Part shown: positions 7,888 to 44,432 of the stretch, one piece after another
Position numbering within the stretch: the first letter of the stretch is position 1
Layout: every line of letters begins with the position of its first letter
Assembly: GCA_014728085.1 (NCBI GenBank)
Contig: WJMF01000103.1
Location: 34,661 to 98,660 of the forward strand
Length of the DNA stretch: 64,000 nucleotides
Reading direction: 5' to 3'
DNA from: Candidatus Zhuqueibacterota bacterium
GTDB taxonomy: Bacteria; Zhuqueibacterota; Zhuqueibacteria; Residuimicrobiales; Oceaniaggregativiventaceae
Translations under genes and position numbers: made by a program
The notes under the pieces: generated by a model
The model's database searches: none
What the model was told of the DNA's origin: nothing
What the model saw: only the letters and a program-made list of their open reading frames with translations

Positions 7888-8040
7888 TGTTCTATATCTC
7901 TGATTTATTTTCCCTGTCAAAAACTTCCAATCTATAATGAACGAAATATTGTGATAAATAACAACAAAAAATTCTACACCAAAGGCAATGGCGATCCTTT
8001 GTATTTGTGGTATTAAAAAATGCTTGATTATTTATTCTAT

Positions 8041-8068
8041 ATTTTCTATAATATACATTATAGAAAAT
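8041..8068. promoter_or_regulatory. Perfect 12-bp-arm palindrome upstream of the MerR gene (putative operator)
   Basis: ATTTTCTATAAT-ATAC-ATTATAGAAAAT; arms are exact reverse complements, 24 bp upstream of the MerR ATG (8093). Confidence 0.7.
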
Positions 8069-8092
8069 GATACCATCATATCAGGGTCAGAA

Positions 8093-8551
8093 ATGTCTTC
8101 TGTTATTAATCAAAAAATGCAAATCAGTATCAAACCGGTATATACAATTGGTATTGCCGCCGATCTGCTCGGGGTTTCGGTGCATTTGTTACGAGTCTAT
8201 GAGAAAGAGGGATTAATATTACCACATAGAACAGCGACCGGACGCCGGCTTTTTTCCGATCTGGAAATCGAAAAAGTCAATTGCATCAGGCGGTTGATCA
8301 ACAAAGAGGGAATGAATTATGAGGGTATAAAGCGTCTTTTTGCCCTGATGCCCTGCTGGAAAATAAGACAATGCAGTGAAGAGAAACGTTCTCAATGCAA
8401 GGCCCTGAAAAATTATGAAAAACCATGCTGGGCAACCACAGAAAAATGTTCGCATCCTCTTCCGTCCTGCAGAGATTGTATTGTGTACCGAACCACTGTT
8501 GATTGCGCTGATTTGAAAGCATTGATTTATGGGCATTCTCTTGATAAATAA
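8093..8551 (+). CDS. MerR family transcriptional regulator with cysteine-rich C-terminus
   Basis: YTIGIAADLLGVSVHLLRVYEKEGLILPHRTATGRRLFSDLEIEKV MerR HTH; nine Cys in the remaining ~85 residues. Confidence 0.88.
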   Translation: MSSVINQKMQISIKPVYTIGIAADLLGVSVHLLRVYEKEGLILPHRTATGRRLFSDLEIEKVNCIRRLINKEGMNYEGIKRLFALMPCWKIRQCSEEKRSQCKALKNYEKPCWATTEKCSHPLPSCRDCIVYRTTVDCADLKALIYGHSLDK

Positions 8552-8573
8552 ATGAGCAAATTGTTGCAATACA

Positions 8574-8595
8574 TCAATATGCTATTTCATATTGA
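8574..8595. promoter_or_regulatory. Perfect 8-bp-arm palindrome upstream of the SQR-like operon (putative operator)
   Basis: TCAATATG-CTATTT-CATATTGA; TTGCAA (8564-8569) and CATATT (8588-8593) spaced by 18 bp could be -35/-10. Confidence 0.5.
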
Positions 8596-8639
8596 CTCGA
8601 AAAAATTTTAAATGACTTGAAAAAAATACTGAGGTGAAA

Positions 8640-9872
8640 ATGAAAAAGCTGGTCATTCTTGGAGGCGGTACGGCGGGAACGATCATGGTCAACAAGCTGG
8701 CGACCGTACTTGACCCATCGGACTGGGATATTACCCTCGTGGATGAATATGAAACGCATTATTATCAACCGGGATATTTATTCATTCCTTTCGGCATCTA
8801 CACAAAAGAAGATGTCATGAAACCAAAACGGGATTATTTCCCCACCGGGATAAATGTGATCATGTCAACAATCGAGGGCGTACGCCCGAAAGAGAACAAA
8901 GTAGAATTGAGCAATGGAAAAGTACTTTCCTATGATTATCTGATCATTGCTACCGGCAGCAAGATTCATCCGGAAGAGACGGAAGGCATGAACGGTGATG
9001 GCTGGAGACAAAATATTTTTGATTTTTACACGGTAGAAGGGGCGTGTGCACTGGAAAAGTTTTTTAAAACCTGGGAAGGGGGTAAACTCGTTATTGATAT
9101 TGTTGAAATGCCGATCAAATGCCCGGTTGCCCCGCTTGAATTTGCTTTTCTGGCGGACTGGTGGTTTACCGAACAAGGCATTCGCAACAAAGTGGACATC
9201 GAGTTCGTCACGCCGCTACCCGGAGCATTTACAAAACCGATCGCATCAAAATTTTTAGGCAAATTTCTTGAAAAAAAGAATATCCATCTCACCGCTGAAT
9301 TCAATATCGGCTCGGTTAACAGCGATAAAAACAAAATCGTTTCCTGGGATGAAAAAGAAATCGACTATGATGTACTGGTCACGATACCGACGAATATGGG
9401 AGCTGAATTTATTGCCGATTCAGGTATGGGGGATGATATCAATTTTATTCCGACGAATCCGGGCACGCTGCAGTCCAAAGCTTATGAAAACATTTTCGTC
9501 ATCGGTGATGCCACAGATCTGCCGAGTTCAAAAGCAGGTTCCGTGGCCCATTTTGAGGCGGATATATTATTTGAAAATTTTATTCGGGCAACAGAAAACA
9601 GGCCCCTTAAAGCGGATTTTGATGGTCATGCAAATTGTTTTATCGAGTCAGGATTCGGCAAAGGCATATTGATCGATTTCAATTATGATGTCGAACCCTT
9701 GCCCGGAAAATTTCCCTTGCCGGGAATCGGGCCCTTTTCACTGCTTGAAGAGACGCGCATGAATCACTGGGGCAAAATGATCTTTCGCTGGGTTTACTGG
9801 AATTTGTTGCTCAAAGGAGCGGAATTGCCGATTGAGGCACAAATGAATCTAGCCGGTAAGAGGAGAAGTTGA
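8640..9872 (+). CDS. NAD(P)/FAD-dependent oxidoreductase, sulfide:quinone oxidoreductase-like
   Basis: KKLVILGGGTAGTIMVNKLA, YYQPGYLFIPFG, YDYLIIATGS, NIFVIGDATDLPSSKAGSVAHFEA; SD GAGG just upstream of ATG 8640. Confidence 0.9.
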   Translation: MKKLVILGGGTAGTIMVNKLATVLDPSDWDITLVDEYETHYYQPGYLFIPFGIYTKEDVMKPKRDYFPTGINVIMSTIEGVRPKENKVELSNGKVLSYDYLIIATGSKIHPEETEGMNGDGWRQNIFDFYTVEGACALEKFFKTWEGGKLVIDIVEMPIKCPVAPLEFAFLADWWFTEQGIRNKVDIEFVTPLPGAFTKPIASKFLGKFLEKKNIHLTAEFNIGSVNSDKNKIVSWDEKEIDYDVLVTIPTNMGAEFIADSGMGDDINFIPTNPGTLQSKAYENIFVIGDATDLPSSKAGSVAHFEADILFENFIRATENRPLKADFDGHANCFIESGFGKGILIDFNYDVEPLPGKFPLPGIGPFSLLEETRMNHWGKMIFRWVYWNLLLKGAELPIEAQMNLAGKRRS

Positions 9873-9873
9873 T

Positions 9874-10566
9874 ATGAATGATGTAAAGGTTCAACAACAA
9901 CTTGAGGAGATCAACGAAAAACTCGACCGCATCACTGCCCGAATGGAGGAGCAAGAGAAAAGCCAGCAAGAGTGGAAAGAGTTAAAGAACGATCTCACAC
10001 TCATCGGCACGGATGTTTTCAATTCAGCCGTTGAAGAGTTGCAGGATGTGGCAATATACTTTGACAGCCGCGATCTGGTCTTCTTGTTGAAAAAACTATT
10101 GCGTAACACACGCACACTCATCAACGTCCTCAATCAACTCGAATCCGCTGCCAACCTGATCGAAGACATCAAACCGCTCAGCAAGGATATGTTTGATGAA
10201 CTTTTGCAACGGCTGCAGAAATTCGAGGAGAGGGGCTATTTTCAATTTATGCGACAGTCCGCCCGGCTTTTCGACACGATCATAGCCGATTTCAGCCCCG
10301 AGGACCTGGAAATGCTGAACAAGAGCCTGCCACACTTGCTCAGGGCAGTAAAGAGCCTGACAAAACCGGAGGTGATCGTTCCGGTTGCAAATGCAGCGGA
10401 GCAAATACAAAGCATAGAAATCGATACCGGGAAAGATATTTCCTATAGATCGCTGTTCAGACAGCTGAGAAATCCGGAGGTTAGAAAAGCGATGGCTTTT
10501 ATGCTTGAATTTATAAAATCGGTCAACACACCTGAAAACAAACAATTAATCAAAGAAAATATGTAA
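9874..10566 (+). CDS. DUF1641 domain-containing protein
   Basis: Coiled-coil N-terminus then IKPLSKDMFDELLQRLQKFEERGYFQF...AVKSLTKPEV, DUF1641-like; immediately follows SQR-like gene. Confidence 0.75.
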   Translation: MNDVKVQQQLEEINEKLDRITARMEEQEKSQQEWKELKNDLTLIGTDVFNSAVEELQDVAIYFDSRDLVFLLKKLLRNTRTLINVLNQLESAANLIEDIKPLSKDMFDELLQRLQKFEERGYFQFMRQSARLFDTIIADFSPEDLEMLNKSLPHLLRAVKSLTKPEVIVPVANAAEQIQSIEIDTGKDISYRSLFRQLRNPEVRKAMAFMLEFIKSVNTPENKQLIKENM

Positions 10567-10585
10567 ACATCAAGGAGGTCATATT

Positions 10586-10903
10586 ATGCCTGTTAAAAAT
10601 TTTGCCGGTAAACAAGTAAAAGTTGATGAAGAAGGATTTCTGCTAAATCCTGATGATTGGACAGAAGAAATCGCCTCGGAATTGGCAAGCGCAGAAGGAA
10701 TCGACGAATTGACCGACAAACACTGGAAACTGCTTGTTTTCATGCGGGAAGACTATAAAGAGAACGGAAAGATCCCAACCATCCGTAGAATCAAAAACAA
10801 CGCGGGAATTCCGGTCAAGGAGATTTATTCTCTCTTTCCGGATGGTCCGGCCAAAAAAGCAGCAAAGATTGCCGGACTGGGTAAACCGGAAGGTTGTGTC
10901 TGA
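10586..10903 (+). CDS. TusE/DsrC/DsvC family sulfur relay protein
   Basis: DEEGFLLNPDDWTEEIA, HWKLLVFMREDYKENGKIPTIRRI, C-terminal GLGKPEGCV with penultimate Cys. Confidence 0.95.
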   Translation: MPVKNFAGKQVKVDEEGFLLNPDDWTEEIASELASAEGIDELTDKHWKLLVFMREDYKENGKIPTIRRIKNNAGIPVKEIYSLFPDGPAKKAAKIAGLGKPEGCV

Positions 10904-10943
10904 GATATCTGTTTTTATCGTTAAATAATCAGGAGGTATTTGA

Positions 10944-11414
10944 ATGTCGAATGAAAAAATAAATAAAGTATCCGTCATTATCTCAAAAGGATCACTTGAC
11001 GGCGTCTATCCCGGCTTAATTATGGCAAATGGTGCCCGCATGGATGGCATCGAGGCCAATATTTTCTTTACCTTTTTCGGTCTTGAAACCATCCTTAAAA
11101 AGCGCATGAACAAAATCAAGGTTGCGACTGTCGGTAACCCGGCCATGCACCTTCCCTCGCTGATAGGGATATTGCCGGGCATGTCTGCTTTTGCAACCGC
11201 ACAAATGAAAAAGGAGATGGAGAAACTTGACATCCCCCCTGTTCCCGAATTTATCGAAATGGTACACGCTGCCGGCGCCAAACTCTACGCCTGCAAGGCA
11301 ACTGTGGATATGTTTCACCTGACAAAGGATGATTTTACCGAGGAAACCGAGGATATCATCAATGTCGCCAAATTCTATGAAATTGCGGCCGGAGGCGAGA
11401 TCATTTTTACCTGA
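10944..11414 (+). CDS. DsrE/DsrF/DrsH-like (DsrE2-type) sulfur relay family protein
   Basis: EANIFFTFFGLETILKKRMNKIKVATVGNPAM...AAGAKLYACKATVDMFHL. Confidence 0.88.
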   Translation: MSNEKINKVSVIISKGSLDGVYPGLIMANGARMDGIEANIFFTFFGLETILKKRMNKIKVATVGNPAMHLPSLIGILPGMSAFATAQMKKEMEKLDIPPVPEFIEMVHAAGAKLYACKATVDMFHLTKDDFTEETEDIINVAKFYEIAAGGEIIFT

Positions 11415-11681: not shown

Positions 11682-12458
11682 TCACGCATGCATACCGCCA
11701 TCCATCAGAATAGTTTCACCATTGATATAGGCTGAGGCATTCGAAGCCAGAAAAACAACCACCCCTTTGATATCATCATATTCTGCCATGCGGCCAAGCG
11801 GAACTTTGGCCGAATAATTTTCCACAAATCGTTGTGCCTGGTGCGCCCAAAGCCCGCCCGGACTGATTGCATTGACCCGAACACCATACCGGGCCAGAAC
11901 CCGGGCCAGATACCGCGTTAACGTAACAAGTCCCCCCTTGTGAAAAAAATAATCAGGCGGCGGATCGCCCATATCAGTACCGAGGTAATTGGACAAGTCC
12001 GGTCCATACATACCCATCATGGAGGCGATATTGATGATAACGCCGCCACCGCCGGAGCTGATGAGATCAGCCATCTGCCGTAAAATATCAAACATGCCGG
12101 TGGCATTGACCGCCATGGATTGTTGGAATTTTTCGAGCGGATCGTCATAGCCCTTCATTGGCCTGCTAACAGCATTGTTTACAAAAACATCCAGCCGGCC
12201 AAACCGGGAGACGATTTCATTCTTCAGCTGAAGGACAGAATCATGGTCTGCCTGATCGACCTTTAGAGCCTGAACATCGAGGCCTCTTTGTGCAAATGCG
12301 TCGGCAAGCGCCTTGCCCGCTTTTAAACGCCTCGACGCAGTGATTACCCTGCCACCTGCCTCGGCCAACGCTTCGACGATCGGCTTGCCGTATAAACCCG
12401 TTCCGCCGGTTACGAGAATAACTTTTTCTTTTAACGAAAACAATTCATTCACATGCAT
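11682..12458 (-). CDS. SDR family oxidoreductase
   Basis: VILVTGGTGLYGKPIVEAL, NNAVSRP, YFFHKGGLV; start chosen at MHVNELF. Confidence 0.9.
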   Translation of the reverse strand: MHVNELFSLKEKVILVTGGTGLYGKPIVEALAEAGGRVITASRRLKAGKALADAFAQRGLDVQALKVDQADHDSVLQLKNEIVSRFGRLDVFVNNAVSRPMKGYDDPLEKFQQSMAVNATGMFDILRQMADLISSGGGGVIINIASMMGMYGPDLSNYLGTDMGDPPPDYFFHKGGLVTLTRYLARVLARYGVRVNAISPGGLWAHQAQRFVENYSAKVPLGRMAEYDDIKGVVVFLASNASAYINGETILMDGGMHA

Positions 12459-12573
12459 AGCTGACCCTTTATCATAATCACATTCAAAAATATATCCCCC
12501 GCTTTCGCTAACCATTCATTTATAAGATAATCCACCTGATCGTGCGCCTATCTCAAAACATTTGCGCCAGGCC

Positions 12574-13008
12574 TCAATAGTTACAAGTCCTGATCTCCAG
12601 TATACAAAAAGCCCGTTTAGCATCGAAGGTCAAATCGAATTCCAGGCCAAAGGATTCTGCAATTCGACGATATAGATGGTCGCAGTGCCGGCAATAGTCG
12701 GGATAGGGCTCAATAAACTCACTCTCCAATAAACGCCCCAAGCTCGGACAGCGGTTCATAATGATTCGAAAAACACCCTTCTTTTCATCCAAATCCATAC
12801 TGAAATCCGCAGCCTCCTCCTGAAGGGTTCTGCTCCAGTAGATAAAACAACCTTTCAATCCATGCTCGGCAATAGATCGGCGCAAATTATCCAGAAAGGT
12901 ATCCGACAAGTGGTGCCAGAACTCGACAACACTCTCTTTGCCGTAGCAATGATGAAGAAACCTGAACAGTTCATTATAAGCCGGAATAAATTCGGTACAG
13001 GAGATCAT
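12574..13008 (-). CDS. Small cysteine-containing protein, possible L-2-amino-thiazoline-4-carboxylic-acid-hydrolase-like fold; paralogue of upstream gene
   Basis: RIIMNRCPSLGRL...YPDYCRHCDHLYRRIAESFGLEF; ATGA stop/start overlap with upstream gene. Confidence 0.6.
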   Translation of the reverse strand: MISCTEFIPAYNELFRFLHHCYGKESVVEFWHHLSDTFLDNLRRSIAEHGLKGCFIYWSRTLQEEAADFSMDLDEKKGVFRIIMNRCPSLGRLLESEFIEPYPDYCRHCDHLYRRIAESFGLEFDLTFDAKRAFCILEIRTCNY

Positions 13009-13472
13009 GTCATCCTTCGAAATGTTTGCACGCAGCGACCGCTGCCCGGCACAACATCGCAGTGAGCCTGACAGCCGCTTTGCCGGCAAATGGTTTCATT
13101 GACCACGATTGTTGATGTACAAAAACGATCGGTATAGTAAAGGTTATTTCGTTTCAAGTGCTCAATAGCGGGGCAACGCTTCACCTCGAGCTGTAAATGA
13201 TCCTCTTTCCAATAGAGTTCAAATTCTCCGCCTTCCAGGGTAAAAACACGTCGCAAATGATCCTCAAGTGCCTTCAGGCCGCGCCGTTTGATTTCAAAAA
13301 TCAGGGGTTTGTAGACGGTTTCCCCCACATGGCGCAGGTAAGCATGGGTGATTTCATAACCATAGGTTTCGTCAAGATATTTGATCGCATAGCAGAGAGC
13401 ACCGTGGAAATCCTTATGCAGATAAAGATGCTCCCCGCCTTTACCATCAAGATGTTGGGTTACCTCTTTCAT
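13005..13472 (-). CDS. Small cysteine-containing protein, paralogue of downstream gene
   Basis: DHLQLEVKRCPAIEHL...YYTDRFCTSTIVVNETICRQSGCQAHCDVV; stop TGA shares ATGA with next start. Confidence 0.6.
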   Translation of the reverse strand: MKEVTQHLDGKGGEHLYLHKDFHGALCYAIKYLDETYGYEITHAYLRHVGETVYKPLIFEIKRRGLKALEDHLRRVFTLEGGEFELYWKEDHLQLEVKRCPAIEHLKRNNLYYTDRFCTSTIVVNETICRQSGCQAHCDVVPGSGRCVQTFRRMT

Positions 13473-14395
13473 ACCGTTTCCAATTCAATCACAGCCCCGT
13501 TCTGCCTGCGGCTTTGATCAGCTGCGATTAATGTTTTTACTATATTCACCGTAGCGTCAAAATTCAGGCGACTCTTCCCTGCTCTAACCCCTGAAACAAA
13601 CTCTGCCAAATTGCGGCGAAACATGGCATACCAGTCGTTATATTCAATCAGTTGCCAGCGCTCACGACCATAAAGGGAAATCTGAAATGTCGGGGCAATA
13701 TCCCGATAGAGAAAGACAACAGCGGTTAATCCGTTTGCAAACAAAATTTCAACGCGATTCTGACATTCGTTGCCAAAGTGACGAACTGATTTCACCGCAG
13801 GATCGCCCAGGAGGGTAAACATCGCTTCCAGCATGTGTACTCCGTATTTAAACCAATCCTTTTTACCCACTGCAACTGCGAATTCCAGTGCACCCAACTC
13901 GCCGAGCTCGCGAGAGCAGGCCATTGTCTCTGTGGCATAGCGCATCGATGAACAACTCATTATAAAAGCCCCGGCATCAACCTGATGAATAAAATAGTGC
14001 AAATCTGCGAGATTAATCGCCAGCGGCTTGTCGATAAAAACAGGAATTTTAGCCTTGAGAAAGGGTTCGGCCATTTCCACATGGCGATCGCCGTCATCGC
14101 GCGCGAGAATAACCGCATCAACGACGCCGGTGAGATCATTGAGATCGGCACATACGTGTTCAATAAAAGCGGCCCGGGCAATTTTTTGTGAACTTACCGG
14201 GTCCTGTGTCCATATATGCGTAACCCGGGCGTCATCAATTCCCAGAGTATCTTCATTCTCAGCCAGATATTGAGCGATAACCGGAAATCCACAAGCCGCA
14301 ATCGTGCGTTTATCGTACCGCCCATTGATAATTGCGGACCACGAATAAGGGTGACCATTTCCCTCGCTCATACCGATCATTCCAATTTTCATCAT
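13469..14395 (-). CDS. Gfo/Idh/MocA family oxidoreductase
   Basis: MMKIGMIGMSEGNGHPYSW, PFLKAKIPVFIDKPLA motif. Confidence 0.85.
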   Translation of the reverse strand: MMKIGMIGMSEGNGHPYSWSAIINGRYDKRTIAACGFPVIAQYLAENEDTLGIDDARVTHIWTQDPVSSQKIARAAFIEHVCADLNDLTGVVDAVILARDDGDRHVEMAEPFLKAKIPVFIDKPLAINLADLHYFIHQVDAGAFIMSCSSMRYATETMACSRELGELGALEFAVAVGKKDWFKYGVHMLEAMFTLLGDPAVKSVRHFGNECQNRVEILFANGLTAVVFLYRDIAPTFQISLYGRERWQLIEYNDWYAMFRRNLAEFVSGVRAGKSRLNFDATVNIVKTLIAADQSRRQNGAVIELETV

Positions 14396-14474
14396 CTTCA
14401 ATCCTCTTATTGCCAGTGTAACAGTAAACCCCAAACAACTGATGTATCGCTTGCCTTTGGGCATAGAGCAACGA

Positions 14475-15413
14475 TCATAGCCATCCCTTCTTGTCCCATA
14501 TCCTCAAATCAAGAAAATCGGCATCCGGATACGCCCGTTCACGTAATTGTCTGACGATTTCCCGACCGAGATAACGGTTATCTGCCATTTGAACCGCTTG
14601 TTGCAGATAGGTGAATTGATCGATACCGACCAGCACCGTCGACACAGAGGGAAAAGCCAGAATGAATTTAACAGATAGCTCTGCCAGATTTCGAACCGGC
14701 TCTTTCACCCACTCTTCAAGAGCTTCGACATGGGTTTGAACCGGTTCGAGCGCCGGATGCAGCTCACAGTTTTTACGGGCCAAAATGCCTTTAAACAGAG
14801 CAGACCGAACCATAACACCGATACCGCGTTTGCCCGCCAGTTCGATATAGGGCAGCTGGCGCTGATCGAGCAGATTAAAGGGCACCTGAACGACATCGTA
14901 GAAACCGCTCTCGATCGCATTGGCGGTTTCTGCCGTTGTATAAGTGGAAACACCGACAGCATGTACGAGGCGGTTCTTTTTCAGGTATGACAACGCTTCC
15001 CGAACCGCCGGATGGTTCTGGATTGTTATAGCGCTGTCGTGGAGCAAAAAGAGATCGAGATAAGCGGTATGTAAAGCGAGCAGACTTTGCCGGCAAGAGT
15101 CAACAACAAAGCGGCAAAGGGCTTTATCCGGTAGTTTGGCCGGAAGATGTTTGCACTTGCTGCAAATAATAATCTGGTCGCGCCTGTCTGCAAATGCGCG
15201 CCCGATCAGCGCTTCACTGCGGCCATATTCCCTCGCCGTGTCGAAAAAATTAATACCCGTCTGCAGTGCATTCTGCAAAAGCGCAATGGAAGTTTGTTCC
15301 GCCGGCGGTTCTGTATTTCTGCCCACGCCAATGCCATAGGGCATGCCGATTTCCACCCCGCCAAAACCGATTTCTGAAACCAGCCCGCATTTGCCTAATG
15401 AACGTTTTTGCAT
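14475..15413 (-). CDS. Aldo/keto reductase
   Basis: GINFFDTAREYGRSEALIGRAF, YLDLFLLHDS. Confidence 0.93.
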   Translation of the reverse strand: MQKRSLGKCGLVSEIGFGGVEIGMPYGIGVGRNTEPPAEQTSIALLQNALQTGINFFDTAREYGRSEALIGRAFADRRDQIIICSKCKHLPAKLPDKALCRFVVDSCRQSLLALHTAYLDLFLLHDSAITIQNHPAVREALSYLKKNRLVHAVGVSTYTTAETANAIESGFYDVVQVPFNLLDQRQLPYIELAGKRGIGVMVRSALFKGILARKNCELHPALEPVQTHVEALEEWVKEPVRNLAELSVKFILAFPSVSTVLVGIDQFTYLQQAVQMADNRYLGREIVRQLRERAYPDADFLDLRIWDKKGWL

Positions 15414-15486
15414 TTGTCGTTACCTGCAGCTCTAACTTTAATCGCAATGCATTTCATGTGATTTACATGTTCCGTCATATATTGGG

Positions 15487-17001
15487 TTAGTGCCTTCGGC
15501 CTGCTTGAAGATTATTTGCTTTTTTATTAAAAATCCATCCCAAAAACAGGCTGCTTCCGACCCCGACGATAAAAGAGACCGGAATCATCCATAAAAATGA
15601 AACTGCGGTGCCAAAAATTTCCTGTGAAAAACTAATCAAAGACGAAGCCAGGACTGCCGCCAGAGTGCCGATAAAGGTAGCGCGCTCATTTGCGTTTTTA
15701 ATAAAAAGGGCGATAAAAAAGGGAACGAACAGCGGTCCGGTGAGTAGATTCACCGTTTTATAGGTGAGTTCCAGCAGGTTGCCTTTAACATGGCCGACCA
15801 GAAGGCTCAGCAGAACCACAAACAAGCCGATCAGCAGAGATATCCTTTTGGCCAACACCACTTCATCTTTACTGCTCATTTCCTTTTTGCGAAAGCGGGC
15901 CAAAAAATCCCGACTAATAACCAGACAGGATGAATTGACACCTGAAGAGAGGCTGGACATAGCAGCCGCCATCAATCCGGCGAAAATCAGTCCCGACAGA
16001 CCGCCGGGCAAACCGGTAACGATAAATCTTGGCAGCAACAAATCCGCTTCCTGGGTAATGGAACGGCCGGGCGAAAGCAACAGGCTGTGTTTTTGAAAAA
16101 AAGCAAGTAAGGCGAGTCCGAGTACACCGAGCAGTGCCAGCACCAAAAAATTGGAAACCAGAGAGGCAAGATACATCTTTCGGGCAGCCTGCGCATCTCG
16201 CGTAGAGAGATAGCGTTGTATAGCCATTTGATCCGAACCCGCCGTGCAAACATACCAGGCAAACATTCCCCATATAGCGGTTAAAAAACTGACTCTTGCC
16301 CTGGTATCAAAAAAGGTCCAGCCCGCCCAGTTTTCCGACCAGGTGGTCGGCCACCAGCCCGAAACACCGCCCATATCCCGGTTGATCAGATAAAGAGCCA
16401 ATAATGCACCGAAAAATAAAATAAAGGTTTGCATCACATCCGTAAACACCACACCCCGCAATCCGCCCATTGAGGTGTAAACAATGGTAATGGCACCGAT
16501 AGCCAAACTCACCCATAAGGCGGTTCCCTCCGACCATCCCATTATCGGGATGATGATCTTTTCCGCGACCATATAAATGATAACCGCCATCCAGATCAGG
16601 CGTAAAAGCAAAAACAAAATCGATCCGAGCATGCGCACGCTCAGCCCGATTTTTATTTCGAGCAATTCGTACGCACTGCTTACCGGTTGTTTCATAATAA
16701 CCGGTATTAGCCACCAGGCGACAACATAATAGACGAGCGGGAACGCCAGCAGCATGGACCAGTACATTGGACCATTTTTGATCATTTCGCCGGGAAGAGA
16801 GAGATACGTAATCGCGCTGAACAGAGTAGCAAACAATGACAAGCCCACTGCCCAGGGCTTCATCTGTCTGCCGCCCAGCATATAATCCTTGATGTCCTTG
16901 TTTCGCTTTGAATAGTACCAGCCGACCCCCAGCATCACCAGACCATAAAAAACAATGACAATCCAATCCCATACACTCAGAAGATTTACAGTAGCATCCA
17001 T
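15487..17001 (-). CDS. Sodium:solute symporter (SSS) family transporter
   Basis: ~14 TM segments, GVGWYYSKRNKDIKDYMLGGRQMKPWAVGLSLFATLFSAITYLSLPGE. Confidence 0.94.
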   Translation of the reverse strand: MDATVNLLSVWDWIVIVFYGLVMLGVGWYYSKRNKDIKDYMLGGRQMKPWAVGLSLFATLFSAITYLSLPGEMIKNGPMYWSMLLAFPLVYYVVAWWLIPVIMKQPVSSAYELLEIKIGLSVRMLGSILFLLLRLIWMAVIIYMVAEKIIIPIMGWSEGTALWVSLAIGAITIVYTSMGGLRGVVFTDVMQTFILFFGALLALYLINRDMGGVSGWWPTTWSENWAGWTFFDTRARVSFLTAIWGMFAWYVCTAGSDQMAIQRYLSTRDAQAARKMYLASLVSNFLVLALLGVLGLALLAFFQKHSLLLSPGRSITQEADLLLPRFIVTGLPGGLSGLIFAGLMAAAMSSLSSGVNSSCLVISRDFLARFRKKEMSSKDEVVLAKRISLLIGLFVVLLSLLVGHVKGNLLELTYKTVNLLTGPLFVPFFIALFIKNANERATFIGTLAAVLASSLISFSQEIFGTAVSFLWMIPVSFIVGVGSSLFLGWIFNKKANNLQAGRRH

Positions 17002-17017
17002 ATTCTCTCCCCGCCGT

Positions 17018-18427
17018 TTAGGTCATTAGTCGTGATCGGTTCTTCTTTATCCAACGGTGATATTTTTCAACATTTTTCTTGTCAGGATAAAAAACAGATT
17101 GCTGATCCGGCCACTCCTCAGAGCACGCTTTGAGCGAAGGATAGCAACCATATCCAACCGCAGCCAGCATGGCGGCACCGCGACTGGCAGGTTCTTCACA
17201 GCCGCTCCGGATCACCGGCACGCCGAGCATGTCGGCCTTGATCTGCAACCACAAGTCGCTTTTTGCGCCCCCACCTGTGGCCAAAACGTCTGCGGGCAGG
17301 GTGCGGTCGAACAAAAGCGCGATGAGCTCGACAAAATCCAGTGCCGTTGATTCAAGTACAGAGCGAACATAATGGCCGGGCGTATAGTCGCCCTGACCTT
17401 TACTAAACCGGTTCGTCTGATTTTGCCAAATAGCCACAAGACCATCGCACCCCGGCTCTACAGCCCCAGCAAGCTCGAACAGATCCTTAAACGATTGCTG
17501 TGGCATAACTGTTTTTAAATAATAATCAAGCGCTCTCGTGCCATTCTCCCTAAAAGCAAGTTGATAACAAGTCAAGCCATCTGTTGCCGGACCGGTATGA
17601 CAATTTTTCTTTGGCTGATAGCGGTCAAGATATCTAAAACAGGCAAGTACCGTACCCGTTGATTCGCTGCACCGATGATGATCCTTTACGCCGGCTCCAA
17701 TAGCAGCGATATGATGATCCAGTCCGCCGGCGATGAAGGGAATATTCCGGGGAATTCCCAGAGGGTTTGAGCGGGTTTTCCCTGTCATGGAACCGGGTTT
17801 TTTGACAACGCTCAGACTCTGTTTTTCGATGCCCAGGCAATCCAGAGCACGCTGCCACCAGGAGCATGATTTCAAATCCAGTAATCCGAGAAGAGAAGCG
17901 GTTCCGGCATCTCCCGCCCTTTCTCCGGTACACATAAAGGTAAAAAAATCGGACAAGGTCATAACACAATCTGCGCGATTCCATATGTCGGGTTCATTCT
18001 GTCTGAACCAGACCAGCTTGTTGAGACAAAATTGATGGCTGAACAGGCCCAGACCGGTTGTCATCAAAAAGTCACTTTTATTTACAAAACCCTCCAGCGT
18101 TCTATCCAGAACGGCGGCCCGGTCGTCAGGCCACAAAACAATCGGGGTCAGAGGATGCAGAGCCTTGTTTAACAGCACAAAACTGTTGGCTTGCGAAGCA
18201 TAAGATACAGCAACGATATCGTCCGAGCCTGAACCGGCTTGGTGACAAACCTCTGCGATGGCGCCATTAAGCAAAGATATAAACCGACTGACCTCCAGTT
18301 CACACCTGACGCCATCTATAGACGGATTTACGGCCACCCTTGTCAAGCCAACCAGCCGGCCATCCGGCATATAGAGAGCGGCCTTGAAATAGGTTGTACC
18401 AAGATCAATTCCGAGTATATAGGTCAT
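17018..18427 (-). CDS. FGGY-family carbohydrate kinase (xylulokinase-like)
   Basis: YILGIDLGTTYFKAALY, FIAGGLDHHIAAIGAGV, DVLATGGGAKSDLWLQIKADMLGVPV. Confidence 0.94.
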   Translation of the reverse strand: MTYILGIDLGTTYFKAALYMPDGRLVGLTRVAVNPSIDGVRCELEVSRFISLLNGAIAEVCHQAGSGSDDIVAVSYASQANSFVLLNKALHPLTPIVLWPDDRAAVLDRTLEGFVNKSDFLMTTGLGLFSHQFCLNKLVWFRQNEPDIWNRADCVMTLSDFFTFMCTGERAGDAGTASLLGLLDLKSCSWWQRALDCLGIEKQSLSVVKKPGSMTGKTRSNPLGIPRNIPFIAGGLDHHIAAIGAGVKDHHRCSESTGTVLACFRYLDRYQPKKNCHTGPATDGLTCYQLAFRENGTRALDYYLKTVMPQQSFKDLFELAGAVEPGCDGLVAIWQNQTNRFSKGQGDYTPGHYVRSVLESTALDFVELIALLFDRTLPADVLATGGGAKSDLWLQIKADMLGVPVIRSGCEEPASRGAAMLAAVGYGCYPSLKACSEEWPDQQSVFYPDKKNVEKYHRWIKKNRSRLMT

Positions 18428-18463
18428 TGCATCCGTTTTCCATAGATATTACCGCAAAAATGT

Positions 18464-19777
18464 TCATATTTTATTGAGAAGAGCCAACGTTTCCCGCACC
18501 AGGATCAGACCGCTGCGGTGGTCGAACAGCGCATTGGAAGCTTCATACCCGCCCCGTTCTGCCTCTGCCGCCGTAACGATATAGCCCTGCAATTCACCGT
18601 TGGCCAGCGATATGACAAAAGCATTGGCATGTTTTTGCTGTACGCTGAGGGCATACTCGACAAATATTTCTCCGGGCCAGCCGATAAAATTCCAGTCACC
18701 TATGGTGAAAACCTGAATCTCTGCGGGAAGACAGGTGCGAACCACCGCATCGAGTTTCTCTTCAGCCGCAGCACGACTCAGGGTCAGGGTTTCCTCGGCC
18801 CCGTAAAGATCGCACTCTGCTGTGCGGATTTCCCGACTGTCCGCAGCGGCATTTATCAAATCCTGCAACCGCTTTTGGCGATGGCTCAGGCGGCTTTTTG
18901 CTTCATCCGTCGCCATCATAGGTCGCGGTGGAAGATCGATAAAAGTTTGTCGGGTGGCCAGATTCAGCTGCCCGGTAAAATCGCTCTTCTTTACAGCCCC
19001 GATCACCGATTCAGCCAACAGAGTTCCCAGACGCCTCGCCTCTGCAAATGTATTCGATCTCGTCATATGACGCGGACTGGTATTGCCGCAAGGACCGGTA
19101 TAATATACAACAGCGCATTCTGCTCCCAGCGTCCTTTGCATTTCCGCTCTCGCCATTCCGGGAAAATCAGCACTAATCAGCCTCGAGTCCTGGTGTAAAA
19201 CCGTCGGGTGAATATTCACAACCAGCAAACAGGCAATATTTTTTTGTTTTTTTCTATCCCTGATCAGCAGGACCGGAACCTGGTGGTTGATTTCGCGGGC
19301 AGGATCATGCCTGTTGCTGCCGATGCCGCGGCTGTCGGCAAAAACGAGCCCGGCCACCGCCGGTTTTGCAGAAGAAATGGCTTTAACGGCTGTTCTGATC
19401 ATAGAATCGACGAGAAAATGACGATACCCGGTATCCGCATCGGGCACAACCGCATCGTCCGCAGTGCAGAGGCAATCAACCGTTACCGGCCCGGAGTGCG
19501 TGTGCGTGGCCGCGATCAAAATCGAATCCTCCCGAATTCCGGTCTGTCGGTGAATCTGTTGACGCGTTCCGAGGACAAGCGCCTTATCCACATAAATCAC
19601 ATCGAGCGAAATGAAAAGCAAGCCCCCGTCATGATCGCCAAGATAGAGCGCCGAACAGAGCAGAGGATCATGCACGCCCGTGCTCATACGCTCTGTATGC
19701 GGATACCCAAAAAGAAAAACGCTTTGCCGGGGCGTAATATCAGAGCAGGCAGCGCCGGCGGATAAAAAAACGCTCAT
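18464..19777 (-). CDS. Neutral/alkaline non-lysosomal ceramidase N-terminal-like domain protein
   Basis: GAACSDITPRQSVFLFGYPHTERMSTGVHDPLLCSALYLGD, ILIAATHTHSGP, YYTGPCGNTSPRH. Confidence 0.82.
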   Translation of the reverse strand: MSVFLSAGAACSDITPRQSVFLFGYPHTERMSTGVHDPLLCSALYLGDHDGGLLFISLDVIYVDKALVLGTRQQIHRQTGIREDSILIAATHTHSGPVTVDCLCTADDAVVPDADTGYRHFLVDSMIRTAVKAISSAKPAVAGLVFADSRGIGSNRHDPAREINHQVPVLLIRDRKKQKNIACLLVVNIHPTVLHQDSRLISADFPGMARAEMQRTLGAECAVVYYTGPCGNTSPRHMTRSNTFAEARRLGTLLAESVIGAVKKSDFTGQLNLATRQTFIDLPPRPMMATDEAKSRLSHRQKRLQDLINAAADSREIRTAECDLYGAEETLTLSRAAAEEKLDAVVRTCLPAEIQVFTIGDWNFIGWPGEIFVEYALSVQQKHANAFVISLANGELQGYIVTAAEAERGGYEASNALFDHRSGLILVRETLALLNKI

Positions 19778-19778
19778 A

Positions 19779-20723
19779 TTAATATTCCTTGTCCCAGTCC
19801 GGTTCGATATTTTCCGCGATTTCTTCCGAGATATAGAAATCGGTTCGCAATCGCTGATGAATCGAGGTAGGCAGCAGAGGTGTAACCGGTCCGTGAGCCA
19901 CCAGTCGTGTCATCAGGCGTTGCCAGGCCGTACCGGTGCCGTGAACCGTAATCGAATTGATATCCATTCGGTTCTTCGCGGCAATGACTTCTTTGGGGCC
20001 AATTGTCGCTGCTTTTGGCGGTATCAGTGCAATATCGCCGCTTTTACCAAAACTTCCGTGCAGGGAATTCTGCGCAAGGGTAAAAGGACTGAGAGTAACA
20101 ATTCGGGATCCCATCTGCATCCATTCCTGCAACGGCGCCTGGAATTCAGGAGCATCCGGTTCGATAAATGCGAGGTGTCCCGTCCAACCGGGTCCGCTAT
20201 AGCACATATCGGCACCGCCCAACTCTTCAATCATATCACCATAATGTGCGAGATTTTTATTGTCCGGTGCGATGAACTGTTCTTCCGGTGGTCGTAAATC
20301 GGGATCGATACGACTAAAAAAGTTTTTTTTCATGGCATGCAGGAATCCCTGAGGCCAGGACTCGGGTGCAATGTGTCCGTTTTCGTCGGCATATTCATCC
20401 ATCGCGAACGCATACAAGTGTTTACAGGAAAGGCGAAATGTGTTGATCAAATGCGCCACATGCCTGTATGAAGAAACCGGGTTGGGTAAAATGAAGACAA
20501 CGTTGCGGCCTTGATCTGCAGCGCTCTTGATACGATAAAACATATCGGTGATGAATATCATCTCAATATCCGCTGCTTTTCTTACATGAATAACAAAATC
20601 GGGATTGGGATGTTTGTCGATATCCTCTTTTTTAATTCTGCGCACCCGCTCCAGAACCGCTTTATCGCGAAACGGAACACAGTGGGAAGGATTGTATTCA
20701 AATTCTGCCATTATTCTCTCCAT
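19779..20723 (-). CDS. Glucosamine-6-phosphate deaminase/isomerase-like (NagB superfamily) protein
   Basis: NVVFILPNPVSSYRHV, AFAMDEYADENG, YSGPGWTGHLAFIEPDAPEF. Confidence 0.82.
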   Translation of the reverse strand: MERIMAEFEYNPSHCVPFRDKAVLERVRRIKKEDIDKHPNPDFVIHVRKAADIEMIFITDMFYRIKSAADQGRNVVFILPNPVSSYRHVAHLINTFRLSCKHLYAFAMDEYADENGHIAPESWPQGFLHAMKKNFFSRIDPDLRPPEEQFIAPDNKNLAHYGDMIEELGGADMCYSGPGWTGHLAFIEPDAPEFQAPLQEWMQMGSRIVTLSPFTLAQNSLHGSFGKSGDIALIPPKAATIGPKEVIAAKNRMDINSITVHGTGTAWQRLMTRLVAHGPVTPLLPTSIHQRLRTDFYISEEIAENIEPDWDKEY

Positions 20724-20763
20724 TTCTTCAGCTTTACGCCATAAAAGGCAAATCCGGGCCTGA

Positions 20764-21912
20764 TTATTCGTTCAACATATTGACCGTTTTTTGATGTTTG
20801 TGCGATGCAAGTGCGGCTGTAAACAGACGATGGCCGAGATTGGTTTCTTCAGGTGTAACGCAGGTTGCAAACAACTTTTCGGGACTGCCGTGCTGCAACT
20901 CGTTGACAAAGGCGGCCCACATCTGCAGCCAGGCATCTGTAAAGCCAAATTCAAAAATGGAACCGGTGATGGTTTTATAGGCAGTTTCGAACCCCGTGTC
21001 CATGTTTTGCCAATTCTGATCACCACCCCGATAATGCAGAATCTGCAGCGTTTTCGGATATTTGGTGCTGAATCTGAGACTTGTTTTTGTCCCCCAAACA
21101 TCCAGGTACCAGGTATTCTTGTGCCCCGGAGCGATACGATGCATTTTGAGCGTCATGGGAAACAGAGTACCGTTTTTATCTGTTGTTTCGCAAAAAAGCG
21201 TGGCATTGTCCCAGGTTTCGCAGGCAACCGGGTTGCCCGCCGCATCGGGTCGATGCGTAACAATATCGGATAAAACAGCGCGGAGATTGGCAACCCGCCA
21301 TCCGGCGCGAAAAGGGACATGGCACACGTGCATCCCCAGATCCCCCATGCAACCGTATTCGCCGTTGTAGCGGATCATCCGTTTCCAGTTGATCGGCTTT
21401 TTCGGATCAAGGTCGCTGGAATGCAAAAATCCCGCACTGACCTCGAGTAGTCGGCCCAGTTGATCCTCTTCAATATAGCTGCAAAGTTTTTGTACAGCCG
21501 GGAAAAAAGGAAACTGGGATGTACAGCGAACAAAAACCTGTGGATGTTCAGATGCGGTTTTAAGGATGGCGCGATTGGCACCGAGATCGATTCCAAAGGG
21601 CTTTTCACCCATGATGTGCTTACCCGCTCTGATGGCGGCACAATAGATCTCTTCATGAAGATGGTGAGGAACAGCGATAAAGACCGCTTCGACCTGATCA
21701 TTTTGCAGCAATTTCTGATAATCCGTGGTTTTTTGTTCAATGCCGCTGCATGACTGTTGAAACCAGGAAAAAGCATCGGGGTTACGGTCACAGATGGCTA
21801 TGATCTCCGGTTTAATATCGAATGCTGAAAGATGACACCAGCGAGCGACACTGCTGGCAAACTCTCTGCCCATCAGGCCCAGACCGATGATTCCAAATCG
21901 CATGATTTTCAT
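20764..21912 (-). CDS. Gfo/Idh/MocA family oxidoreductase
   Basis: RFGIIGLGLMGREFASSV, AVFIAVPHHLHEEIYCAAIRAGKHIMGEKPFGID. Confidence 0.93.
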   Translation of the reverse strand: MKIMRFGIIGLGLMGREFASSVARWCHLSAFDIKPEIIAICDRNPDAFSWFQQSCSGIEQKTTDYQKLLQNDQVEAVFIAVPHHLHEEIYCAAIRAGKHIMGEKPFGIDLGANRAILKTASEHPQVFVRCTSQFPFFPAVQKLCSYIEEDQLGRLLEVSAGFLHSSDLDPKKPINWKRMIRYNGEYGCMGDLGMHVCHVPFRAGWRVANLRAVLSDIVTHRPDAAGNPVACETWDNATLFCETTDKNGTLFPMTLKMHRIAPGHKNTWYLDVWGTKTSLRFSTKYPKTLQILHYRGGDQNWQNMDTGFETAYKTITGSIFEFGFTDAWLQMWAAFVNELQHGSPEKLFATCVTPEETNLGHRLFTAALASHKHQKTVNMLNE

Positions 21913-21913
21913 A

Positions 21914-23281
21914 TCAATATCCCAATTCTCGTTCAACGTTTGTTATGGCGTCCTCAATGATATCCATTCCAAGCGCCGCATACTTTTCATTCATAATCAA
22001 TGGCGGGGACATGCGCAAAATATGACCGGCGGGTATCCATGCCAGCCCGTTTTGAAAGGCATATTGATACACCAGCTTACCCGCCTTGTCAAAGGGCTCT
22101 TTACTCTTCTTGTCCTTTACCAGTTCTATACCGAGGAGAAATCCTTTTCCCTTGACATCCCCGATAATAGCGTGGTCGGCCTGCATTTTTTTCATGCGCC
22201 GCATAAAATATCTGCCCACACATCTTACATTTTCAAGAATATTCTCCTCTTCGATAACCTGAAGTGAAGCCAGGGCCGCGGCACAGGCCATGGGATTGCC
22301 ACCATAACTTGAAGAAGCTGAAATTTTATCCAGAGCGTCGGCATATTCTTTTTTGACAATCATTGCGGTTACCGGAAAGCCATTGCCAAAGGATTTGCCA
22401 AAGGTTACAATATCGGGCACGGTCTTCCAGTGATCGAGACAGAGCCACTCTCCCGTCCGCCCCATGCCCGCCAGAATTTCATCATCAAAAAGCAAAACAC
22501 CCTCTTCATGGCAGAGCCGGGATAATTTTGGGAAAAAATCATCCGGCGGGAAAATGGATCCCGCCCACCCCTGGGCCGGTTCGAGAACAAAGGCTGCCAC
22601 ATTACCGACAGTGCCCTCGCGGATAAAGGTTTTATAAAAATCGATAAAAGCGTCCGTATCAATAGTACCATCCGATTTACAAAACAGAGGTCTGTAGGGA
22701 TCCGGTCGCGGTACCATATAAAATCCGGGTACCCGGCTCGGACCATAGCTCAGGACGTCTCCTCTTGTCATGCGGGCACAGCTTACCGCCCCCATGGATT
22801 TGCCATGAAAATCCTGATAGCAGGAGATGAATTCATGTTTGCCGCTGATTGCCCGTGCGGCCCTCAGGCCGGCCTCAACCGCGGACGCGCCGTCGCTGTA
22901 AAACTGCATGGCATGAAGATTTTCCGGCAGAATGGTGGCCAATTTTTCCACCAGGGCCGCTTTGACCGGCGTCGTAAAATCGTGGCAGTTCATCAAACGC
23001 TCGGCCCAATGTGCGATGGCGGCGGCGATACGCGGATGACCGTGACCGAGGGAAGCAACATAAATACCCGATGAAAAGTCAAGATAGGTGTTGCCGTCGA
23101 CATCGGTAATGGTGATGCCGTAGCCCTTATCAAAACAAACCGGAAAAAGCTTAACCTGGGAAGAGAGACCGCGAAAATAACGCGATGTGTTTGCATGCAT
23201 GGCCTTCGATTTCGGCCCGGGTGGGGGAACAACAATTTTTGGAATCTCCTGACTATTTTTCTGCCACCACGCTTTTGACAT
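21914..23281 (-). CDS. Aspartate aminotransferase family protein (class III PLP aminotransferase)
   Basis: YLDFSSGIYVASLGHGHPRI, LLFDDEILAGMGRTG, VTFGKSFGNGFPVTAMI (PLP lysine region). Confidence 0.94.
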   Translation of the reverse strand: MSKAWWQKNSQEIPKIVVPPPGPKSKAMHANTSRYFRGLSSQVKLFPVCFDKGYGITITDVDGNTYLDFSSGIYVASLGHGHPRIAAAIAHWAERLMNCHDFTTPVKAALVEKLATILPENLHAMQFYSDGASAVEAGLRAARAISGKHEFISCYQDFHGKSMGAVSCARMTRGDVLSYGPSRVPGFYMVPRPDPYRPLFCKSDGTIDTDAFIDFYKTFIREGTVGNVAAFVLEPAQGWAGSIFPPDDFFPKLSRLCHEEGVLLFDDEILAGMGRTGEWLCLDHWKTVPDIVTFGKSFGNGFPVTAMIVKKEYADALDKISASSSYGGNPMACAAALASLQVIEEENILENVRCVGRYFMRRMKKMQADHAIIGDVKGKGFLLGIELVKDKKSKEPFDKAGKLVYQYAFQNGLAWIPAGHILRMSPPLIMNEKYAALGMDIIEDAITNVERELGY

Positions 23282-23305
23282 GAAATATCTCCTTTCAAAA
23301 ACACC

Positions 23306-23797
23306 CTACGCTTCTGACGTTCTGCCTATAGGAATACGATCATCCTGAAATATGTTGTCATCGACGATACAGGGCTGCGAGAGTTCGAGGATCATTGCCG
23401 GACCCTGAATTGCGGTAAAGCGGTGATAAATGCCCGAATCGATGCGCTGTACATCCCCTGCCTGCATCACAAAGTGTTTGTCTCCATAGTCAACCCTTAT
23501 CCTCCCCTTGACGATATAATACGTTTCGACCTTATTGGCATGTTTGTGCATCGGACAGGTTTGGCCATCAAAGACAAACAGGTACTTGCCGCCATAGCCG
23601 GCGTTGATTTCATTGGCGATCCAGTATTCAACAAGCCCGTAACGGAGAAATTCACCCAGACCAAAATCAAGAACCAGGGGTTCAACCGCCGGCAGGGCTA
23701 TATCCCACTCTGCAATCTGCTTGTGGAATGCTTCAAGATAAGGTTTGGCCTGGTCCGGGCTGAGAGAGATATCCAGTCCCTTTTTCAATTGATCCAT
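23306..23797 (-). CDS. Cupin protein, D-lyxose ketol-isomerase-like
   Basis: GGKYLFVFDGQTCPMHKHANKVETYYIVKGRIRVDYGDKHFVMQAGDVQRIDSGIYHRFTA metal-binding cupin. Confidence 0.72.
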   Translation of the reverse strand: MDQLKKGLDISLSPDQAKPYLEAFHKQIAEWDIALPAVEPLVLDFGLGEFLRYGLVEYWIANEINAGYGGKYLFVFDGQTCPMHKHANKVETYYIVKGRIRVDYGDKHFVMQAGDVQRIDSGIYHRFTAIQGPAMILELSQPCIVDDNIFQDDRIPIGRTSEA

Positions 23798-23803
23798 AAT
23801 TCG

Positions 23804-24967
23804 TTATCCCTTGAAAAACACCAAAGCGCCATCGATAAAAGTCGCCAGGCAATTACCCAGCTGGTCAAGAACGGCAATGTCCGCGCATTTCCCGGTTTCA
23901 AGACTACCCAGTTCGCTATCGAGTTGCAAGACTTTTGCCGCATTCAGAGAAGTAAAACGACTGGCGAGAGCCGGAGAGATACCACAGGACAGGAGATTAA
24001 CAAAGGCCTTGTTCATGGTCAATGTGCTGCCGGCAAGCCGGTTGTCCTGTTCGAGCCGAGCCACGCCATCGACCAAATGGTAGCGGCTGCCATCAGCAAA
24101 GTCAAAACGTCCCGACTCCAGTCCGGCACCGCACAGGCTGTCAGTGATGGCGATAAACCGGTCAGGTTCCAGTACCCGGCCGGCGATGATGATCCATTCT
24201 CTGGCGACGTGTTGCAGATCGCAGATGATTTCGCAACAAAGCTGGTCGCTAGCCAAAATGTGTTCGATCAAACCGGATTCGAGCACACCGGGTTCCGCCT
24301 CGCCCGAGAGCGGAAAAGCATTAAACAGGTGCGTCACATAGGACAAGCCGGCGTTGATATAATCATCAAGTGAATCGGCCGCGGCAATGGAATGGCCCAG
24401 CGAGACCACCACGCCGTTTTGCTTTAACAGGGCGATCAAGCCGGCTCCGTTTTCCAATTCAGGCGACAACGTCATCAGCTTGAGTACATCACCCAGCTCG
24501 TCAACAAGATGTTTTGCCTCCTGCAGATTCACCGGGCGCCGCGTTTCTTCTGCAATAGCACCGGCCGCTTCAGGATTGAGAAATGGTCCCTCAAGATGCA
24601 GCCCCAAAATCCTGGCGCCGCTGTTGGCGGTTTTTGCAGCAGCCGTTCTGGCCTGGCGGCCGCTTTCGATGAATTCCTCGTCAGTCATGGCTGTTGCAGT
24701 GGGGAGAAAAGAGGTCGTTCCGAAACAGGGTTGAGCCAGAGCAATCTCTTCTATTGCCGATGCTTCGCCGACGTTAAATTGTAAAAGACCATGCAGATGA
24801 GGATCGATGAATCCGGGTAAAATCCAGGCATCGCCAAAATCGTAATCTATGGAATAATTTGTAACGCCGGGTATAATCTCTGCAATTTTCCCTTCCTCAA
24901 GAATCAGTAAACCGTTGATGACGGCATCCGGTGCAACGATTTTATTTCCGCGAATCGTATAGGCCAT
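23804..24967 (-). CDS. N-acetylglucosamine-6-phosphate deacetylase-like amidohydrolase
   Basis: GFIDPHLHG, LGLHLEGPFLN, SLGHSIAAADS, THLFNAFPLSG, ITDSLCGAG. Confidence 0.88.
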   Translation of the reverse strand: MAYTIRGNKIVAPDAVINGLLILEEGKIAEIIPGVTNYSIDYDFGDAWILPGFIDPHLHGLLQFNVGEASAIEEIALAQPCFGTTSFLPTATAMTDEEFIESGRQARTAAAKTANSGARILGLHLEGPFLNPEAAGAIAEETRRPVNLQEAKHLVDELGDVLKLMTLSPELENGAGLIALLKQNGVVVSLGHSIAAADSLDDYINAGLSYVTHLFNAFPLSGEAEPGVLESGLIEHILASDQLCCEIICDLQHVAREWIIIAGRVLEPDRFIAITDSLCGAGLESGRFDFADGSRYHLVDGVARLEQDNRLAGSTLTMNKAFVNLLSCGISPALASRFTSLNAAKVLQLDSELGSLETGKCADIAVLDQLGNCLATFIDGALVFFKG

Positions 24968-43086: not shown

Positions 43087-43110
43087 AGTGCTAAACGATA
43101 TTCAAAAAAA

Positions 43111-44274: not shown

Positions 44275-44432
44275 AACACCTCCTCCATTTTTTTGTTAAT
44301 CTACTCAAGTAAAAGCAAAATTGAAACATAAAATATTCTGCCGGCCCTTTGAGCGCGTCAACCGTCGAAGATGTATCATATTGCCTTTACGTGCTCGCCA
44401 AAATATTCCAAAATCCAGACGATACTCGAACG

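Follow-up and report, generated by a model that had tools for sequence, protein, structure and literature searches.

An apparently undescribed, putative amino-sugar gene cluster built around NagA-like and NagB-like proteins that lack 6-phosphate contacts

A 64,000-nt stretch of contig WJMF01000103.1 (hereafter the window), from a draft genome of a Candidatus Zhuqueibacterota bacterium (5.2 Mb, 98% complete), contains an operon of thirteen minus-strand genes running from window position 24967 to 11682. Two of its products, a NagA-like amidohydrolase and a NagB-like deaminase, keep the catalytic residues of their families and have lost the residues that hold the 6-phosphate of the substrate in the canonical enzymes. 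Together with genes for a ceramidase-like amidase and an FGGY sugar kinase, they constitute a core that recurs in at least eight phyla. The cluster apparently represents a conserved and undescribed variant of amino-sugar catabolism. With somewhat more confidence than doubt, we read it as a kinase-late pathway, in which an unphosphorylated, N-acylated 2-amino aldose is processed before phosphorylation takes place.

The NagA-like and NagB-like proteins

In the known route for N-acetylglucosamine (GlcNAc), phosphorylation precedes deacetylation and deamination. To compare the operon proteins with the enzymes of that route, 81 NagB-like proteins were aligned with 19 canonical NagBs of the phylum and E. 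coli, and 52 operon-linked NagA-like proteins with 28 canonical NagAs of the phylum and E. coli. Residues are numbered as in the E. coli proteins; the sequences used for these aligned well with the canonical proteins of the genomes, and known catalytic positions fell where expected.

The NagB-like proteins retained catalytic residues Asp72 and His143 in all 81 sequences and Glu148 in 76, the other five having Asp. The 6-phosphate contacts, which we take to be loop 41–44, Arg172 and Lys208 in the E. coli enzyme, were gone in every one of the 81: loop residues 41–43 were deleted, Arg172 was replaced by Leu or Met, and Lys208 by Gln, whereas canonical NagBs keep these contacts. New basic or polar residues, His222, Gln268 and Arg269, were invariant in the family, which formed a single clade in a tree of 41 sampled sequences (SH-aLRT 99). 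The window protein showed no Pfam match at 1e-3 and scored below the NCBIfam nagB equivalog cut-off (57 versus 236.9 bits). Its structural model (predicted local distance difference test, pLDDT, 88) was nearest to glucosamine-6-phosphate deaminase 1dea (E 2e-16); phosphogluconolactonases followed at 2e-9.

That fold superfamily is shared with 6-phosphogluconolactonase, an annotation carried by a distant haloarchaeal homologue, and four oxidoreductases are encoded nearby. Together with the loss of Asp141, a member of the deaminase triad, these facts could be read as signs of a sugar lactonase instead of a deaminase, in an operon that oxidizes a sugar by means of its Gfo and AKR dehydrogenases. 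We consider this most improbable, however, given that the deaminase-type motifs MDEY and GHLAFxEP are retained, that the predicted structure is clearly nearer to deaminases, and that the gene is tightly linked to that of a NagA-like deacetylase.

In the NagA-like proteins, the HxH motif, Glu131, His195, His216 and Asp273 were present in 52/52 sequences and His251 in 51. The phosphate-clamp residue Arg227, found in 27 of 28 canonical NagAs, occurred in none of the 52, which have Thr (32), Ser (10), Lys (5), Ile (4) or His (1) at this position; the window protein has Ala (Ala224). Asn219, which also contacts the phosphate, was Asp in 42 of 52. In Mycobacterium marinum, mutation of the equivalent invariant Arg inactivates NagA, and free GlcNAc is not a substrate of the mycobacterial enzyme (PMC6016474). 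In the NagA tree the operon-linked proteins interleaved once with a long-branched row, so that a single origin of the group is not claimed.

Loss of phosphate contacts with preservation of catalytic residues in both families yields two consecutive enzymes devoid of 6-phosphate-binding features. The pair is thus non-canonical, as an earlier note on this DNA had proposed, and to judge from the residues the automatic NagA and NagB labels on the cluster genes are probably wrong. The same genome carries separate canonical genes, nagA on contig C90 and nagB on contig C28.

Several features weigh against a pathway that handles free sugars. Asp141 is Thr in 77 of 81 NagB-like proteins, so the deamination reaction may differ in detail; Lys208 lies in a poorly aligned stretch, beside the invariant Arg269 that might replace it; and model confidence is low in the part that holds the active-site loop 178–187. 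As for NagA, the window protein keeps the phosphate-touching Asn-Ala pair and narrowly passes the NCBIfam nagA equivalog cut-off (228 versus 225.65 bits), and in five homologues of the KSB1 (candidate division) type Arg227 is replaced by Lys, which could still bind an anion. This Lys, the invariant His222, Gln268 and Arg269 of the NagB-like family, and the almost constant presence of a kinase gene in the loci would also fit a different order, in which the FGGY kinase first phosphorylates another position and both enzymes have been remodelled to hold a phosphate or other anionic group elsewhere. We regard such a kinase-first route as unlikely. Most NagA-like proteins have Thr or Ser, rather than a basic residue, at position 227, the replacement of Asn219 by Asp is widespread, and FGGY kinases usually act on ketoses, polyols and sugar acids, not on ring-form hexosamines.

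The operon and its four-gene core

All thirteen genes and protein families described in the earlier note were recovered, with small corrections of starts. In order of transcription they are:

23804–24967, minus strand: NagA-like amidohydrolase, 387 amino acids (aa), core; Pfam Amidohydro_1; TIGR00221 228 bits (cut-off 225.65)
23306–23797, minus strand: small cupin, D-lyxose-isomerase-like, 163 aa, accessory; Cupin_2 48.9 bits, Lyx_isomer 33.6 bits (cut-off 20.8)
21914–23281, minus strand: AT3, class III pyridoxal-phosphate aminotransferase/racemase-type protein, 455 aa; Aminotran_3 308 bits
20764–21936, minus strand: Gfo1, Gfo/Idh/MocA oxidoreductase, 390 aa as listed; GFO_IDH_MocA 66.8 bits
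19779–20723, minus strand: NagB-like deaminase without the phosphate grip, 314 aa, core; TIGR00502 57 bits (cut-off 236.9)
18464–19777, minus strand: ceramidase-type metal amidase, N-terminal domain only, 437 aa, core; Ceramidase_alk 62.6 bits
17018–18427, minus strand: FGGY sugar kinase, 469 aa, core; FGGY_N 130 bits, FGGY_C 61 bits
15487–17001, minus strand: SSS-family Na+ symporter, 504 aa; SSF 129 bits
14475–15413, minus strand: aldo/keto reductase (AKR), 312 aa; Aldo_ket_red 131 bits
13469–14464, minus strand: Gfo2, Gfo/Idh/MocA oxidoreductase, 331 aa as listed; GFO_IDH_MocA 40 bits
13005–13472, minus strand: Cys1, small Cys-rich protein, paralogue of Cys2 and in the same protein cluster
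12574–13008, minus strand: Cys2, small Cys-rich protein with a predicted V4R/TRAPP-type fold, 144 aa
11682–12515, minus strand: short-chain dehydrogenase/reductase (SDR), 277 aa; adh_short_C2 145 bits

Successive intergenic spacings are 6, 24, −23, 40, 1, 36, 16, 73, 10, −4, −4 and 58 bp. The start of Cys2 is a conserved ATG at 13008 (protein MISCTEF...), which gives a 4-bp overlap with the Cys1 stop, and not the TTG at 13089 of the open reading frame list. Starts of homologues place that of Gfo1 probably at ATG 21912 and that of Gfo2 probably about 23 codons into the listed frame.

To assess conservation of the cluster, the NagB-like alignment was run against a set of genomes with a single representative of each species. 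This returned 414 relatives, the best 80 of which (59–73% identical) were analyzed. They came from Bacteroidota (27), Planctomycetota (15) and Verrucomicrobiota (10), the rest belonging to Actinomycetota, Chloroflexota, Spirochaetota, Lentisphaerota, Hydrogenedentota and unplaced lineages; phylum labels of some draft genomes may be wrong, e.g. that of locus L114, labelled Actinomycetota. Isolates carrying the cluster include Niabella, Maribellus, Mariniphaga and Proteiniphilum. Linkage was counted in the 35 loci whose NagB-like gene is flanked by 9 kb or more in each direction. A NagA-like gene was found in 28 of these (31 if an Amidohydro_2 stand-in is counted), a ceramidase-like gene in 30 and an FGGY gene in 28, and all three accompanied the NagB-like gene in 24. 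The absence of FGGY from seven of the 35 is a further point against the proposed pathway. The NagA-like gene was directly upstream of the NagB-like gene, on the same strand, in 53 of the 80 loci. As a control, the surroundings of 17 canonical nagB genes of the phylum were searched at the same threshold and gave no NagA-like, ceramidase-like or FGGY match.

Four genomes of the same phylum (G050, G057, G047 and G048; loci L043, L044, L046 and L047) share the collinear order AT3, Gfo1, NagA, NagB, ceramidase-like, FGGY, SSS, AKR, Gfo2, and a fifth (G049; locus L045) keeps it up to a contig end inside the AKR gene; the same-phylum carriers are recorded as candidate division KSB1. Two more genomes of the phylum hold partial sets, comprising SSS, NagA, NagB and AKR in G051, and NagB, ceramidase-like, SSS, AKR, Gfo2 and SDR in G039. 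The gene set is thus more than a chance packing, and linkage of the smaller core extends to other phyla. The window departs from its collinear relatives in having the NagA-like and cupin genes at the front. A cupin gene was present in only two of the 80 loci, beside AT3 or Gfo1. The cupin, Cys1/Cys2 and SDR are accessory in the window lineage, and AT3, Gfo1, SSS, AKR, Gfo2, Cys1/Cys2 and SDR behave as optional modules. The thirteen genes do form an operon; the functional unit is nevertheless the four-gene core with lineage-specific modules.

Bacteroidota loci often have an aldolase gene of the HpcH or DapA family and an MFS transporter gene ahead of the core, and behind it a trio of genes for a KpsF-like SIS isomerase, a triosephosphate-isomerase-like protein and YjbQ. 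Loci L080, L081, L083, L089, L113 and L136 have the trio downstream of FGGY. It recalls the final part of tetritol pathways and may act on the ketose phosphate. A secreted family that lacks a Pfam match but shares an N-terminal LFVD/IFVD motif, possibly a glycosidase-type beta-propeller, was noticed near the cluster at L082 (17712–19193), L103, L084, L126 and L127. Three KSB1 genomes have uroporphyrinogen-decarboxylase-like genes, so named from the appearance of their translations, in the vicinity of the operon (L043 2071–3306, L044 3–911, L047 347–1462). On a plasmid of Devosia neptuniae (L159, 6386–10272), a short NagB, a sugar-isomerase-domain protein, an amidohydrolase and a ceramidase N-terminal protein are encoded with an ABC sugar importer, possibly an analogous system of Alphaproteobacteria. 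A large recurring frame antisense to the NagB-like gene (cluster 12) was discarded as a mechanical open reading frame.

The other enzymes of the core also keep their catalytic residues. In the ceramidase-like proteins, His92, His94 and His190 were conserved in 56/56 sequences, and Glu370 and Tyr399 in the 54 rows reaching them, the His and Glu positions aligning with those of structure 2zws. The window protein shares with neutral ceramidase (PF04734) the N-terminal catalytic domain and these conserved His, Glu and Tyr residues. It differs in its length of 437 aa, not about 640, and in its amino-sugar gene context, and it falls far short of the full-length family NF041649 (21.5 bits, cut-off 1200). 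The kinase has both FGGY domains, and catalytic Asp237 was found in 42 of 42 sequences; it reached no NCBIfam equivalog cut-off, the best being XylB (203 bits, cut-off 380), and its best solved relative is AI-2 kinase. Among the modules, AT3 conserves catalytic Lys296 in 23/23 sequences and is nearest, among solved structures, to alanine/serine racemase and isoleucine 2-epimerase. Gfo1, whose best NCBIfam match was levoglucosan dehydrogenase (97.6 bits, far under the cut-off of 650), adjoins AT3 in the window and in all five KSB1 relatives.

The proposed route and its substrate

In the kinase-late pathway, a small N-acylated 2-amino-2-deoxy aldose would enter unphosphorylated through the Na+ symporter, and the NagA-like metalloenzyme would remove its 2-N-acetyl group. 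The NagB-like protein would then open the ring and convert the free 2-amino aldose into a ketose and ammonia, using the machinery of glucosamine-6-phosphate deaminase without the phosphate grip. The FGGY kinase would next phosphorylate this ketose, giving it entry to central metabolism. The ceramidase-like enzyme is predicted to remove a second amide-linked acyl group. In the window lineage, AT3 and Gfo1 would probably remove or invert a second nitrogen, either by taking the amine to a ketone and then to an alcohol or by epimerization, and AKR, Gfo2 and SDR might adjust oxidation state or stereochemistry.

This scheme resembles the canonical GlcNAc pathway (NagE/NagK, NagA, NagB) in placing a deacetylase before an isomerizing deaminase, from the same two families and with intact catalytic residues. 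It differs in that the operon has no phosphotransferase system (PTS) or NagK-type kinase and its core adds an FGGY kinase and a ceramidase-like amidase, while the canonical genes stand apart in the genome. Late phosphorylation would make sense where C6 offers no site for a phosphate, as in 6-deoxy amino sugars or 6-deoxy diamino sugars. The presence of two amide hydrolases and of two nitrogen-handling enzymes, and the kinship of the oxidoreductases with those of nonulosonic-acid clusters, are hints of a di-N-acyl deoxy sugar.

Import by a symporter, as the earlier note had suggested, is consistent with the nearest solved structure, the sialic acid transporter SiaT (5nv9, 169.8 bits); the nature of the cargo is conjecture. 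SiaT binds N-acetylneuraminic acid through residues including Gln82 and the carboxylate-binding Arg135 (PMC5931594). In the symporter the Arg135 equivalent was Trp in 18 of 19 homologues, among them that of the window, and Leu in the other one; Gln82 was lost and Ser60 kept. Absence of both Arg135 and Gln82 favours a neutral deoxy (di)amino sugar over an imported nonulosonic acid, an assignment that we hold loosely.

Some of the oxidoreductases resemble those of nonulosonic-acid clusters. The SDR scored 146–167 bits against SDRs of five nonulosonic-acid-type clusters and at most 79 bits against ten paralogues at home; Gfo2 scored 182 bits against a Gfo protein of a haloarchaeal NeuB/NeuC cluster versus 65 bits against its only paralogue at home; the AKR showed a weaker tendency (107–119 bits to AKRs of pseudaminic-acid clusters). 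Proteins of PtmA and PtmF type, with which the window SDR and Gfo2 may be compared, belong to the legionaminic acid locus (PMC4481668). Unlike biosynthetic clusters, the operon has these oxidoreductases among catabolic genes and has no NeuB, NeuC or cytidylyltransferase. Searches of a plasmid collection with the NagB-like, Gfo2 and ceramidase-like proteins returned no annotated copy of the operon; nonulosonic-acid clusters surfaced instead.

These kinships, the SiaT-like symporter and the extra genes found among the 80 loci (DapA-family in 10, HpcH-family in 20, BNR sialidase-like in 17, NanM-type Kelch in four) would fit degradation of legionaminic- or pseudaminic-like acids, in which an aldolase frees pyruvate and delivers an unphosphorylated di-N-acyl 6-deoxy hexosamine to the core. 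This would be a special case of the kinase-late pathway, and to us a doubtful one. Besides the loss of Arg135, no aldolase is encoded in the window operon, and an HpcH homologue elsewhere in the genome has no NagB-cluster neighbours. Many Bacteroidota have BNR and Kelch genes, and the aldolase families are broad; the contrast in BNR genes (17 of 80 loci against 0 of 17 controls) is weak evidence because the controls came from a single phylum. Sialic acid catabolism (NanA, NanK, NanE, NagA, NagB, with SiaT-type uptake) is alike in its symporter and in the NanM-type, BNR and DapA-family genes of some relatives. The thirteen window proteins, however, include no NanK or NanE homologue, and the label of sialic acid operon was rejected on the loss of Arg135 and the want of an aldolase in the window operon. 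Broader, and tentative though slightly easier to accept, is the proposal that di-N-acylated deoxy-diamino sugars from the surface glycans of bacteria, of bacillosamine, FucNAc4N or legionaminic/pseudaminic type, are what this widespread and undescribed route breaks down, by means of a free-sugar NagA/NagB pair, two amide hydrolases, and AT3 with Gfo1 for the second nitrogen.

The earlier note had left a choice between a non-canonical amino sugar and an aminocyclitol. Gfo/Idh/MocA enzymes and aminotransferases do occur in inositol and inosamine pathways. The NagB mechanism, however, consists of ring opening followed by loss of the C2 amine, which requires an aldose with an anomeric carbon, and the deaminase residues Asp72, His143 and Glu148 are in place. 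Inositol ring-cleavage families matched none of the 13 window proteins, and Gfo1 and Gfo2 scored far under the IolG cut-offs. Aminocyclitol catabolism is thus hardly credible, and the gene set looks like one for catabolism of an N-acylated amino sugar.

The Cys proteins match no Pfam family. Cys2 has a conserved start and CP/YCxHC motifs, and its model (pLDDT 93) matched TRAPP Bet3, PoxR/MopR sensor domains and YslB, if modestly (best E 7.5e-4, template modelling score about 0.5). From this modelled fold, a small-molecule- or metal-binding role for the Cys1 and Cys2 pair is plausible.

Surroundings and significance

The window operon lacks a dedicated regulator, as had been noted. This does not extend to its relatives, which often have a DeoR-type (14/80 loci) or GntR-type (7/80) regulator beside the cluster. 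A TetR gene at 25401 precedes an outer-membrane-factor/RND efflux set and is therefore no obvious regulator of the operon. Elsewhere in the window, plus-strand genes at 7988–11414 encode a MerR protein, a sulfide:quinone-reductase-like flavoprotein, a coiled-coil protein, a DsrC/TusE-like protein (10586–10903) and a DsrE2-family protein, possibly a sulfur-trafficking module. As judged from translations, genes for a DnaE-type polymerase, a GNAT-like protein and, on the opposite strand, a single Y-family-polymerase-like protein adjoin at 40012–45605, possibly a mutagenic repair cassette, and on the minus strand at 58743–61035 a carbamate-kinase-like gene adjoins a cyclic 2,3-diphosphoglycerate synthetase-like gene.

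The openly licensed literature in PMC gave no description of this gene set, nor of N-acetylquinovosamine or N-acetylfucosamine catabolism or nonulosonic-acid degradation matching the cluster, in agreement with the earlier note's failure to recognize a described pathway, although such absence is not proof. Two enzymes that have both lost the phosphate grip and kept their catalytic residues predict an order of chemistry different from that of the known GlcNAc route, and point to amino sugars that perhaps cannot carry a 6-phosphate. The cluster, which is frequent in Bacteroidota, Planctomycetota and Verrucomicrobiota and sporadic in several other phyla, may mark an overlooked flow of carbon and nitrogen, possibly from bacterial surface glycans.

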